Below, piece by piece: positions 17,694 to 22,666 of a DNA stretch of 64,000 nt. Position 1 is the first letter of the stretch, and every line of letters starts with the position of its first letter. The notes under the pieces are model-generated. The model saw only the letters and a list, made by a program, of their open reading frames with translations. It had not been told where the DNA came from and ran no database searches. Made by a program: the position numbers and the translations under genes. Source of the DNA: Armatimonadota bacterium (GTDB taxonomy: Bacteria; Armatimonadota; UBA5829; DTJY01); the NCBI GenBank assembly GCA_029907255.1, contig JARYMF010000002.1, positions 124,001 to 188,000 on the forward strand, given 5' to 3'.

Positions 17694-20147
17694 TTATACC
17701 TTGAGTGGCTCGGCTTTCTCCGCTTTTTTGAAGATTACCTTGCCGTCGTCCAGCTCAGCGCGGATGACGTCGCCTTCCGTGAAGCGTCCCATAAGTATCT
17801 CTTCGCTGAGCGGATCTTCAATTATCCTTTGTACAGCCCTGCGCAGGGGCCTTGCACCAAACGCTGGGTCGAAGCCTTCTTTCGCCAGTACTTCCTTTAC
17901 CTCGTCGCTTGCTTCAAGGTCCATGCCTTGAACCTTGAGCTGTTCGCGCACTCTGTTCAGCATTAGGTCGACGATTTGCAGAATCTGCGCCGACGAAAGC
18001 GAGTGGAACACTATAACTTCGTCCACCCGGTTCAGGAACTCGGGACGGAAGATCTTCTTCATCTCCTCGGTTACTCGGTTTTTCATTGCCTCATAGGCAC
18101 GAGCGTCCTCGTCAACCTTCTTTGCGGTTCGGAAACCGATGCCGCCATCGCTGCTTATTAGCTGTGCTCCTATGTTTGAGGTCATTATCATAACCGTATT
18201 CTTGAAGTCGACAACGCGTCCCTGTGAATCGGTTAGTCGGCCGTCCTCCATAACTTGGAGCAAGATGTTGAATACTTCTGGATGCGCCTTCTCTATCTCG
18301 TCGAGCAGCACAACCGAGTACGGTTGCCGACGAACGGCTTCGGTGAGCTGTCCGCCTTCTTCGTAGCCCACGTACCCAGGTGGCGCACCGACAAGTCTTG
18401 ATACGGCAAACCGCTCCATATATTCAGACATGTCTATGCGAATCAAGTTATCCTCATTGTTGAATAGGAACGCCGCGAGTGCCCGTGCAAGCTCCGTCTT
18501 TCCGACGCCAGTGGGGCCCAGGAATATGAACGAACCAGTAGGCCGCTTGGGGTCCTTTAGCCCTGATCTAGCTCGTCTGATTGCACGGGAAACCGCCGCA
18601 ATTGCTTCATCCTGTCCGATAATTCTCTCGTGCAAAGCCTGCTCCATGTTCAAAAGCTTGGCTGTCTCTGTTTCAACTAGTCTTGAAACAGGGATGCCTG
18701 TCCAGCTGAACACAATGTGAGCAATTTCATCTTCTGTCACGACCGGGTCTGTTGCATTCAAGCTTTCCTGCCATTGACGGTCAAGCTCCCGGATTTTTTC
18801 GGTGAGATACCGCTCCTGAGCTTGGAGCTCGATTGCGCGGTCGTATTGCCCCGTTGCAGGCAGTGACTCTAGTTCCTGCGTGACCAAACGTAGCTCAGCC
18901 TTTGCTGCTCGGAGTTCTGCAGGTGGCAATGTTCTTTGCAACCTTACTCGCGAAGCAGCTTCGTCTATAAGGTCAATTGCCTTGTCTGGCAGGCAACGGT
19001 CGGTTATATACCTATCAGCGAGACGAGCTGCGGCATAGAGGGCGTCATCTCGAATCTTTACATGATGGTGCCCCTCATATCTATCCCTCAATCCCTTGAG
19101 GATGTCTATTGCCTCCTCAACGGTGGGCTCGCGGACCTGGATGGGCTGGAATCTTCGCTCGAGAGCGGCATCGCGCTCGATATACTTGCGGTATTCGTCC
19201 ATTGTTGTTGCGCCGATGCACTGGAGCTCGCCGCGCGCAAGGGCTGGCTTCATGATGTTCGAAGCATCGATTGCTCCCTCGGCTGCGCCTGCGCCAACCA
19301 AGGTGTGAAGCTCGTCAATAAAGAGGATTACCTCACCATTGGCTTTGCGCACTTCATCTATAATGCGCTTCATTCGCTCTTCGAATTCGCCTCGATACTT
19401 CGTGCCAGCAACCACACCCGCAAGGTCGAGAGCCACGATCCGGCGGTCTTTCAGCATTTCAGGGATGTCGCCGGATACAATGCGCTGGGCAAGACCTTCG
19501 GCGATTGCTGTCTTACCTACACCCGGCTCTCCAATCAGCACAGGGTTGTTTTTCGTCCTTCTGCTCAGGATTTGGATAACGCGCTCGATCTCGGTATTTC
19601 TGCCCACAACTGGGTCGAGCTTATCTTGTCTGGCTAAATCTGTCAGGTCGCGGCCGAATTCATCCAATGTGGGAGTCCTCGACCTTGTCCTGGTCGTTGC
19701 CATAGAACTATCGTCGCTTTGGAGATTCATTACTTCTCGTCTTGTTCTTTCTAGATCAACTCCAAGCTTGGCTAGAACGCGTGCTGCAAGCCCTTCACCC
19801 TCTCGGATGAGGCCGAGTAGCAGGTGTTCCGTGCCTATGTAGTTGTTGTTCAACTGCCTAGCTTCGTCATATGCCAGGTCAATCACGCGCTTTGCGCGTG
19901 GGGTTAGTTGCATGGTATCCTGGCTGAGCCGGCCGTCTCCTCTTGTAACCTGCCGCTCGATTTCAGCCCGGATCCGGTTAAGGCTTACGCCCATCCGGTC
20001 GAGTATTCGCGCGGCTACGCTATCGCTCTCGCGTACAAGGCCAAGAAGCAGGTGCTCGGTCGTGACAAAATTCTCGCCAAGCCTGCTGGCCTCTTCCTGA
20101 GCGAAGAAAACGACTCTACGCGCCCTCTCAGTAAACCGCTGCCACAT
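17694..20147 (-). CDS. clpC: ATP-dependent Clp protease ATP-binding subunit ClpC
   Basis: This 817-residue Hsp100 unfoldase feeds ClpP. It has a double Clp-N domain (1-145), a first AAA+ domain with GEPGVGKT (about 205), a middle coiled segment (about 400-470), and a second AAA+ domain with GPTGVGKT (about 543) and [13 protein letters not shown]. The glutamates of both TEHLLLGL motifs, which in Bacillus bind phospho-arginine, are present. The ribosome-binding site is AAGGAGG. It follows ilvE-mcsA-mcsB on the same strand after a 155-base gap holding an inverted repeat, so it probably has its own control. ClpP is not in the window. Confidence 0.97.
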
Positions 20148-20302: not shown

Positions 20303-21421
20303 TTAATTACAAGGTTCTCCTTCTTCGGAAAACGCTAGTTGGGCAATCGCACTTTCCTCCGCAAGCTTTTCGCGCACTTGCCGGGCACGTCTCACTTCAG
20401 CGCCTACAGTTTCTGCAATGGGCAGGCCGCGCCTTTTGATTGAGGCGGTTGCCCCTATTTGCATTGATGCAAGAAGTTCGCTGAACGCTGTCGCCGATAT
20501 TCCTGGCGGTATCCCAAGCCCGGCTGCAAGTCGGAGTGTGGAGAGATGTGCTAGTGCTTCTTCTCCACTCAGCGCACGCGCCGTTAATAATCTGGCTCGC
20601 GCTTTATTTGCCAGATTGGTGATTTCTTCTTTTTTATTATGAAGAATTATTCTTCGTGCCTCACGTTCCCTTGCTATTAGGTGTTCAGCCGCACCTCTTA
20701 CTCTGGAGGTTATCTCCTTTTCAGAGAACCCTATTGTTGTTTCGTTTGATACCTGAAAAAGATCTCCCAGGGCTTTTGTACCCTCTCCGAAAAGCCCGCG
20801 CACAGAGATTTTTAGTTGTGCGGCCGCGGTCAATGTCGAAACCACCTCTCCAAGCATCGTCAAGCCTGCGAGATGAAGCATTACCGACAGCCTGAGCCCT
20901 GTGCCTATATTGCTTAGAGATGCTGTTAGGTACCCATAATTGTCAGCCCGGGCATACTGAATCTGTTCGCCAAGAAATGTATCGAACTCGCGAACGACTT
21001 CCAGCGCTCTTAATGGCTGTAGCCCCGGCAGGATGCACTGTATCCTCATGTGGTCTTCTTCGTTTACCATGAGGCTTAAAGTGCCGCTTTCGTTTAACAC
21101 CACAGGGCGGTAACTCCCGCCAGCTACATGCTGACTGCTTGCAAGGTGTGAGTCAATCAGAACAAGTCTTTCGAAGGCTGTCATGTGCCGAGGATGCAAC
21201 ACATAGAACCTGCCGAACCTTTCATCTGTTTTATGAATTGTGTCTAAAACTCGGTCGGCAACCCTTTTAAGGTCTGCGTCGCATGCACGGCAGGGAAATG
21301 GCAAGCCTTCTATATTTCGTGCCAGGCGGGCGCGAGTGGAAATCGCAACGTCGCTGGCAGGCCCTTCAGCGCGGACCCAAGCCGGCATTATAGTCTTTTT
21401 CTCTGCGCGATTTTTCAGCAT
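20303..21421 (-). CDS. mcsB: McsB-family protein arginine kinase, catalytic cysteine replaced
   Basis: This 372-residue guanido-kinase-fold protein has the ATP-site arginines in ISTRARLARN (about 27), the conserved NEEDHMRIQ and RGLFGEGTKALGDLFQVSN. It is the protein-arginine kinase that marks substrates for ClpC-ClpP. In characterised McsB the reactive loop reads SCPTN-GTG. Here it reads ASLSNIGTG (about 165-173), so the usual cysteine position is serine, which may lower or abolish kinase activity or indicate a variant mechanism. It starts one base past the stop of mcsA. Fold assignment is secure; activity is uncertain. Confidence 0.93.
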   Translation of the reverse strand: MLKNRAEKKTIMPAWVRAEGPASDVAISTRARLARNIEGLPFPCRACDADLKRVADRVLDTIHKTDERFGRFYVLHPRHMTAFERLVLIDSHLASSQHVAGGSYRPVVLNESGTLSLMVNEEDHMRIQCILPGLQPLRALEVVREFDTFLGEQIQYARADNYGYLTASLSNIGTGLRLSVMLHLAGLTMLGEVVSTLTAAAQLKISVRGLFGEGTKALGDLFQVSNETTIGFSEKEITSRVRGAAEHLIAREREARRIILHNKKEEITNLANKARARLLTARALSGEEALAHLSTLRLAAGLGIPPGISATAFSELLASMQIGATASIKRRGLPIAETVGAEVRRARQVREKLAEESAIAQLAFSEEGEPCN

Positions 21422-21422
21422 T

Positions 21423-21794
21423 TTATAATGGTTTACCCCGACTCACAGTATATCCATGCAGCTCAGCTATGATAGCGCCTACTTCCTCTTCGAATACAAT
21501 ATAGCACGTTGGACATCCTACCATGCCTGTCTGCCGAGTATTTTCTATTGTATTCCCACAGTTGGGGCAAACCTTTGTTCGATTTTGTTCTTTACTAGAG
21601 GCAGAGAGTTTGCTTAAGTGTATGTTTACAAGTTCGGTAAGCAATAAGCCGCTATTGCCGTAAATTATCTTCTCTCTGTCTCCAGTGCATTTAGCGCAGA
21701 GTTGCCGTTCCTCTCGCCGTTCGTTTCCGCTTATTTTGCAGACGACGAATTCAGCTTGCCTTTTCCTGCATAACTCGCAAAGTCCTGCGCGCAT
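21423..21794 (-). CDS. mcsA: McsA-like zinc-binding protein, short form without UVR motif
   Basis: This 123-residue protein has the McsA zinc-finger region: CELC (about 6-9), CAKC (33-36), then CPNC and CPTC. It continues to LHGYTVSRGKPL, where Bacillus McsA (about 185 residues) proceeds into its UVR coiled-coil motif; that half is missing and the frame simply stops. McsA activates McsB and protects against metals. Its start overlaps the stop of ilvE (TGATG), indicating translational coupling, and the mcsB start follows its stop at once. The stop codon is in a clean frame context, so the truncation seems real rather than a frameshift. Confidence 0.88.
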   Translation of the reverse strand: MRAGLCELCRKRQAEFVVCKISGNERREERQLCAKCTGDREKIIYGNSGLLLTELVNIHLSKLSASSKEQNRTKVCPNCGNTIENTRQTGMVGCPTCYIVFEEEVGAIIAELHGYTVSRGKPL

Positions 21795-22666
21795 CAGAAC
21801 GGCACGCCTTCTGTTTTTGTCAAAGTTCTAAAGGCTTCAATCAGCCTTTTTGTCATATTGCCTGGCTGGCCGTTGCCGATTGTGCGTCCATCTACTTGAA
21901 CTACCGGGATTACTTCTGCGGCAGTCCCAGTTAGGAAGCACTCGTCGGCTATATAGACATCAAAGAGAGTAAATAGTCTCTCTTCGACTGGTATACCCAT
22001 GCCTTTCGCAAGGTCAATCACTGTGTTTCTTGTTATCCCCTCCAATATACCTGCATAGGGTGGAGGGGTGATTAGCTTATCATCTTTTACGATGAAAATG
22101 TTGTCGCCTGTTGCTTCGGCAACATAGCCTTCAGTGTTGAGCATCAAACCTTCGCCTGCGTTAACCCTGTTAGCTTCAATTTTCGCTTGAATGTTCGCAA
22201 CGTACTTCCCGAGCGACTTGATTCTTGGTTCCAAGCACTGCGCCGGGCACACTCTTGTGGACACGGTCACCACGTGAAGGCCGTTGCGGTACATTTCTTC
22301 AGGGTAAAGGCTAAGCTTGTCGCTCATTATAATTATCGTGGGGGTCTTGCAAACACGCGGGTCTAGCCCGAGGCCAACTCCTCTTGTTACAGTTATTCTT
22401 ATGTAGCCATCCTGAACCTCATTTCGCCGAAGGAGTTCGAGAATTGCTTCTTCCATCTCCTTCTGCGAGATAGGCAGGTTGATCATCATGGCGTGGGTTG
22501 AACGATACAACCTTTGTATGTGTTCGCGAAGCTTAAATACTTTGCGGGAGTAGACCCGAATTCCCTCGAACGCTCCGTCCCCATAGAGCAAGCCGTGATC
22601 GTATACTGTGATCTTTGCTTCCTCCAGAGGGACGAATTTTCCGTTCAAGTATACGACTTGACCCAT
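21794..22666 (-). CDS. ilvE: branched-chain amino acid aminotransferase (fold-type IV PLP)
   Basis: This 290-residue PLP enzyme shows DHGLLYGDGAFEGIRVY (about 23-39), with the fold-IV core, the catalytic lysine in RIKSLGKYVANIQAK (about 155) and EATGDNIFIV. IlvE interconverts Val, Leu and Ile and their keto acids using glutamate. D-amino-acid transaminase and PabC share the fold; another member at 57139 is better placed as PabC. It heads the operon ilvE-mcsA-mcsB, occupying the position of ctsR in Bacillus. It has a recognisable promoter and a GGGGG-type ribosome-binding site. Confidence 0.88.
   Translation of the reverse strand: MGQVVYLNGKFVPLEEAKITVYDHGLLYGDGAFEGIRVYSRKVFKLREHIQRLYRSTHAMMINLPISQKEMEEAILELLRRNEVQDGYIRITVTRGVGLGLDPRVCKTPTIIIMSDKLSLYPEEMYRNGLHVVTVSTRVCPAQCLEPRIKSLGKYVANIQAKIEANRVNAGEGLMLNTEGYVAEATGDNIFIVKDDKLITPPPYAGILEGITRNTVIDLAKGMGIPVEERLFTLFDVYIADECFLTGTAAEVIPVVQVDGRTIGNGQPGNMTKRLIEAFRTLTKTEGVPF

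Follow-up and report, generated by a model that had tools for sequence, protein, structure and literature searches.

A serine-type McsB in Armatimonadota: phylum-scale variation within a known enzyme family

The serine-type McsB of Armatimonadota is real and represents, at the scale of the phylum, a variant within an already known family of enzymes. In the window, by which we mean the whole analysed stretch of 64,000 nucleotides from contig JARYMF010000002.1 of an Armatimonadota bacterium, the McsB homologue has Ser168 in place of the catalytic cysteine, and its sequence suggests that it is probably an active, McsA-stimulated protein-arginine kinase. In McsB the active-site cysteine is regarded as essential, and in all phosphagen kinases as important, but its exact role is still debated.

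The mcsB gene, its assignment and its active-site motifs

The serine-type mcsB homologue (20303–21421; 372 aa, ATG start; all window coordinates given here refer to the minus strand) reads ...NYGYLTASLSNIGTGLRLSVM... and was assigned by profile searches and a structure model. The ATP:guanido phosphotransferase catalytic domain is present (Pfam PF00217, E=2.3e-51; 174.5 bits versus a cut-off of 22.4). The best NCBIfam match is ‘protein arginine kinase’ (E=1.5e-85), which stays under the equivalog cut-offs (287.3 bits versus 385 and 272.6 versus 500). McsB of G. stearothermophilus (6fh1) aligns to the protein with E = 2e-63 and is also the structure closest to its AF2 model (pLDDT 83.5; TM 0.86/0.90). 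When the model was compared with the PDB, the top matches were McsBs aligned over ~350 columns, whereas arginine kinases mostly reached ~240; a kinase domain and a C-terminal dimerisation domain can be recognized, without the N-domain of arginine kinases. The source genome has a single McsB copy. By phylogeny, fold and gene neighbourhood, the window protein belongs to the McsB lineage, although a definition of McsB that relies on the catalytic cysteine or on the NCBIfam cut-offs would leave it out.

Alignment and codon reading place the reactive loop, TASLSNIGTG, at residues 166–175 (20897–20926). Ser168, encoded by TCT at 20920–20918, is aligned with the catalytic cysteine of TSCPTN in 6fh1, which bears out the predicted serine at this position; the cysteine of the [ST]CPTN motif is thus absent from the window protein. 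The NEEDH motif (residues 120–124; 21050–21064) contains the catalytic glutamates E121 and E122, and in the alignment of non-Cys rows E122, D123 and H124 are found in 82/82 and E121 in 79/82. STRAR (residues 28–32; 21326–21340), with the nucleotide-phosphate arginines R30 and R32, and the lid loop RGLFGE (residues 208–213; 20783–20800), with R208 and the catalytic E213, are each kept in 82/82 non-Cys rows. According to the alignment, the window protein itself retains NEEDH, both STRAR arginines, R126, N171, R177, R208 and E213, so that both the catalytic glutamate pair and the phosphate-binding arginines are in place. The coordinates, the TASLSNIGTG motif and the preserved NEEDH and arginines given in the original prediction all proved correct on re-reading.

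Residue 168 across the phylum and beyond

A single base change separates Cys TGT from Ser TCT, and Ser168 could therefore stem from an error in sequencing or assembly or from a mutation peculiar to the strain. This explanation is refuted by the relatives, which carry serine too, and can be practically dismissed: genome G001 of the same genus has the identical codon (McsB proteins 95% identical), and the whole family, like most of the phylum, has serine. Cysteine in relatives, which the original prediction had named as evidence against itself, was not encountered in the window's family and class, where every other member with a readable site is non-Cys. Our survey of the phylum covered 291 genomes, 170 of them with an McsB match. 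Among the 95 homologues with a readable site, residue 168 is Ser in 81, His in 5, Asp in 2 and Cys in 7, which supports the expectation of a serine fixed across the clade, and does so at phylum scale. In a first set from other phyla (79 loci, mostly from Bacillota, plus the Geobacillus reference), all 80 have Cys at this position, and in a second, more diverse sample (L260–L287, 28 genomes) 26 have Cys and 2 have Ser. Intact McsBs of other phyla are thus nearly all of the Cys type, and serine occurs in two near-intact ones, which lie in mcsA-mcsB-clpC operons and each keep 10 of the 11 other catalytic residues considered below.

The 88 non-Cys rows have only Ser, His or Asp at residue 168, three side chains capable of hydrogen bonding, and never Ala, Gly or Thr, and the neighbouring residues 169 and 170 take 7–8 or more residue types in the same rows. 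Conservation of Ser168 equals that of serines 28 and 225. No compensating cysteine was found elsewhere in the protein, the commonest Cys column being occupied by Cys in 20/88 rows and not in the window protein. Mixing of TCN and AGY codons at residue 168 was considered as a sign of repeated Cys-to-Ser change and was discarded, as such switching is about equally frequent at serines 28, 95 and 225.

In a maximum-likelihood tree computed without residues 168–170, 81 phylum rows form one starred clade (SH-aLRT 100), and 80 of them are non-Cys. The lone Cys exception, L245, is nested in family f38 among neighbours that have Ser and Asp (starred), and its cysteine therefore looks like a return from Ser. 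All 11 other catalytic residues of L245 are intact. At L291/L245 (genome G168), the Cys-type McsB, with TACPTN, is found beside a phylum-typical ClpC. The Cys-type phylum families f9, f30, f35 and f44 lie outside the starred clade. The same holds for the His-type families f7 and f20, the Ser-type family f18 and the two Ser-type proteins of other phyla, and the position of these non-Cys types suggests that cysteine was probably lost several times. The minimum number of Cys/non-Cys changes on the tree is 6, of which 3 are forced by starred branches, although the count is approximate because the tree search was quick and many branches are weakly supported. By sampling Ser, His, Asp and one apparent return to Cys, the clade provides a natural set of mutants for studying the role of the cysteine.

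Retention of catalytic residues and the predicted mechanism

We followed 11 other catalytic residues, chosen from published work on McsB and arginine kinase (PMC12387690, PMC11075012) with arginine-kinase equivalences assigned by alignment, and compared them with 26 further positions that do not vary among the 80 Cys-type McsBs of other phyla. Mean retention in the non-Cys group is 99.6% for the catalytic residues versus 78% for the comparison residues (Mann-Whitney p = 5e-5, a guide only, since the rows are related). All 11 are kept in 85 of the 88 non-Cys proteins, and the remaining three keep ten. Furthermore, dN/dS between the window and G001 mcsB is ~0.15 (NG86) or ~0.24 (YN00), and mcsB is thus under purifying selection. 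Degenerate McsB relatives are found in other phyla (L251, L252, L253, L255 and L258), several of them adjoining an McsA homologue; with 4–7 of the 11 catalytic residues kept, they are likely true pseudokinases.

The window protein might likewise be a pseudokinase that binds ATP, McsA or ClpC without phosphate transfer and provides ClpC with an adaptor or scaffold. Indeed, a cysteine described as essential in McsB is absent, regulatory residues are eroded, homologues that have degenerated at their catalytic residues occur elsewhere, and what is retained could be there to bind ATP even if no phosphate is transferred. However, the degenerate proteins differ sharply in retention from the serine group, residue 168 does not drift to Ala, Gly or Thr, and the guanidinium-binding E122 and E213, needless for an ATP-binding adaptor, are invariant in 82/82 rows, which makes a dead scaffold appear unlikely. 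Of the options originally put forward, an altered mechanism is therefore the best supported, whereas the scaffold is disfavoured by the contrast in retention. The third, a changed substrate, would imply an active guanidino kinase whose acceptor is a small guanidino compound or a different set of proteins, the cysteine having been replaced because the acceptor is bound differently. It could explain why H92 (Arg in 48/82), D147, Y211 and Q227, nearly invariant in Cys-type McsB, vary in the non-Cys group, and no CtsR was found, in a search whose control shows weak sensitivity. Nevertheless, we consider it quite improbable, as the window protein keeps H92 and D147, its fold and domain order are those of McsB, without the N-domain of arginine kinases, and mcsA and clpC are adjacent in its class.

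The active-kinase reading is favoured because phosphagen-type kinases use the cysteine not as a nucleophile but as a thiolate that holds and polarises the guanidinium group, so that transfer can in principle survive its loss. The arginine kinase cysteine makes a hydrogen bond to N-eta1 of the substrate and donates charge, and it is Glu225 and Glu314 that position the attacking N-eta2 and activate it (PMC11075012). In the serine-type enzyme, E122 and E213 would correspondingly orient and deprotonate N-eta2, the hydroxyl of Ser168 (His or Asp in a few relatives) would give the guanidinium a neutral hydrogen bond replacing that of the thiolate, and the glutamates, the phosphate-gripping arginines and N171 are all intact. 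Tagged proteins would then pass to the ClpC encoded next door. Catalysis would be expected to be slower, with no thiolate available for oxidation or alkylation, and phospho-arginine feedback to be weaker, since the receptor motif is eroded. Activity, proteins as the substrate and the takeover of the hydrogen bond by serine are all what we infer from sequence.

Retention of the 11 residues, the restricted choice at residue 168, purifying selection, the single starred clade, the recurrence of Ser in two operons of other phyla, the kept zinc finger of McsA and the match of the AF2 model to 6fh1 argue for an active kinase. The strongest objection comes from Bacillus, in which Cys-to-Ser replacement reportedly inactivates McsB. 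Yet a mutation introduced into a Cys-adapted site differs from a site that evolved with serine, in which residues 169, 170 and others have changed too. Cys157 of S. aureus McsB is termed catalytically essential in a review (PMC12467219), and for arginine kinase, partial activity is described when the equivalent cysteine is changed by engineering (Gattis 2004, as cited in PMC11075012). Also against activity are the erosion, in the clade, of the receptor motif and of parts of the dimer interface, the failure to find a YwlE-like phosphatase, and family f16, in which mcsB has no adjacent mcsA or clpC in the stretch read.

Regulation, gene neighbourhood and known systems

In Bacillus-type McsB, the RDxxRA motif is the receptor that binds phospho-arginine. 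In the alignment, its eroded counterpart in the window protein is AEVRRA (residues 341–346; 20384–20401), with R341 and D342 replaced and R345 and A346 kept. Between other-phylum and non-Cys rows, R341 falls from 74/80 to 12/82, D342 from 77/80 to 21/82 and R345 from 80/80 to 65/82. The Arg–Glu salt bridge of the dimer (273–288) is represented in the window by Lys273 and Glu288, a pair that might still bridge, and is poorly kept in the clade.

The mcsA homologue (21423–21794; 123 aa) encodes two CxxC zinc fingers and no UVR tail, as judged from NF053706 (E=4.1e-14, under the cut-off), a UVR search, which gave no match in the window McsA, and tail length. Tails were read in the window McsA and among L001–L070 and L181–L200. 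The UVR tail is lost in 39/39 readable non-Cys phylum loci and kept in 82/82 first-set Cys loci, tail length being 17–46 aa in non-Cys phylum loci versus 71–98 aa in Cys loci. A coupling of UVR loss to cysteine loss was rejected: UVR is present in two Ser-type loci from other phyla, L284 and L287, and the loss is therefore probably a lineage trait. The C-terminal zinc finger, reported to bring the catalytic cysteine of McsB into the right orientation and so to switch the kinase on (PMC12467219), is retained in the phylum even where McsA has shrunk to ~70 aa; in family f25, McsA is little more than this activating finger. In family f8 (L040, ORF from 301, 475 aa; L039, L067, L068 and L069), the McsA zinc-finger region and McsB make up one ORF, a natural activator–kinase fusion. 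Since the finger is kept and the UVR tail and receptor motif are lost, the activating part has been maintained and regulatory parts have decayed.

The order mcsA-mcsB-clpC, with mcsA directly beside mcsB, is found in the window and its class. ClpC (17694–20147; 817 aa), identified by profile search and alignment, has the predicted N-domain glutamates E31 and E107. Their value as evidence of phospho-arginine reading did not hold, however: every compared ClpC carries both where aligned, phylum genomes without an McsB match (G005, G007, G033, G046 and G047) included, and we rejected them as a sign of a live system, since they are not diagnostic. At the place of ctsR in Bacillus sits a gene whose sequence reads as branched-chain aminotransferase-like (21794–22666) and which overlaps the start of mcsA by one base. 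CtsR was found in 0/61, with weak sensitivity, as the control recovered only Lactococcus CtsR and missed that of B. subtilis. The source genome yielded no arginine phosphatase of the YwlE type; its only low-molecular-weight phosphatase match (L212, G000:C6:26631-27020) is ArsC-like with a CIHNSGRS motif. The source genome also has, outside the window (G000:C7:25418-26326), two further Clp N-domain proteins of 165 and 472 aa, either stand-alone or fused in another way and ~51% identical to the ClpC N-domain. In family f16 (L048, L052–L062, L066, L191–L194, L198–L200), neither mcsA nor clpC lies beside mcsB in the stretches read, and G038, of the same family, has only a weak Clp N-domain match. 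PADLOC gave no match for anti-phage defence.

On balance, it seems reasonably likely that a phylum-wide branch of guanidino kinases phosphorylates arginine without a thiolate, using Ser, His or Asp, and that this branch has also lost the McsA tail and a large part of the feedback by phospho-arginine, both of which regulate the Bacillus system. If true, protein-arginine phosphorylation would extend beyond Bacillota in an oxidant-resistant form. One residue is, in any case, insufficient to call kinases dead or to annotate them by the CPTN motif. A description of Ser-type McsB was not found in the literature searched (Cys167/C167S; McsB of Planctomycetes and Armatimonadetes), which is not proof of absence.

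Compared with McsB of Geobacillus and Bacillus (6fh1, 6tv6), the window protein has the same fold and domains, ~35% identity, mcsA and clpC as neighbours and all catalytic residues but one. It differs in having Ser for the catalytic Cys, in lacking half of the RDxxRA receptor and in missing the NCBIfam equivalog cut-offs; its McsA has no UVR tail and its operon no ctsR. Arginine and creatine kinases share the catalytic domain (PF00217), the glutamate pair and the arginines, but have an N-terminal substrate domain and the cysteine, both of which are absent here. The degenerate McsB homologues are likewise McsB-related, but, unlike the serine group, they lack 4 to 7 of the 11 residues followed.
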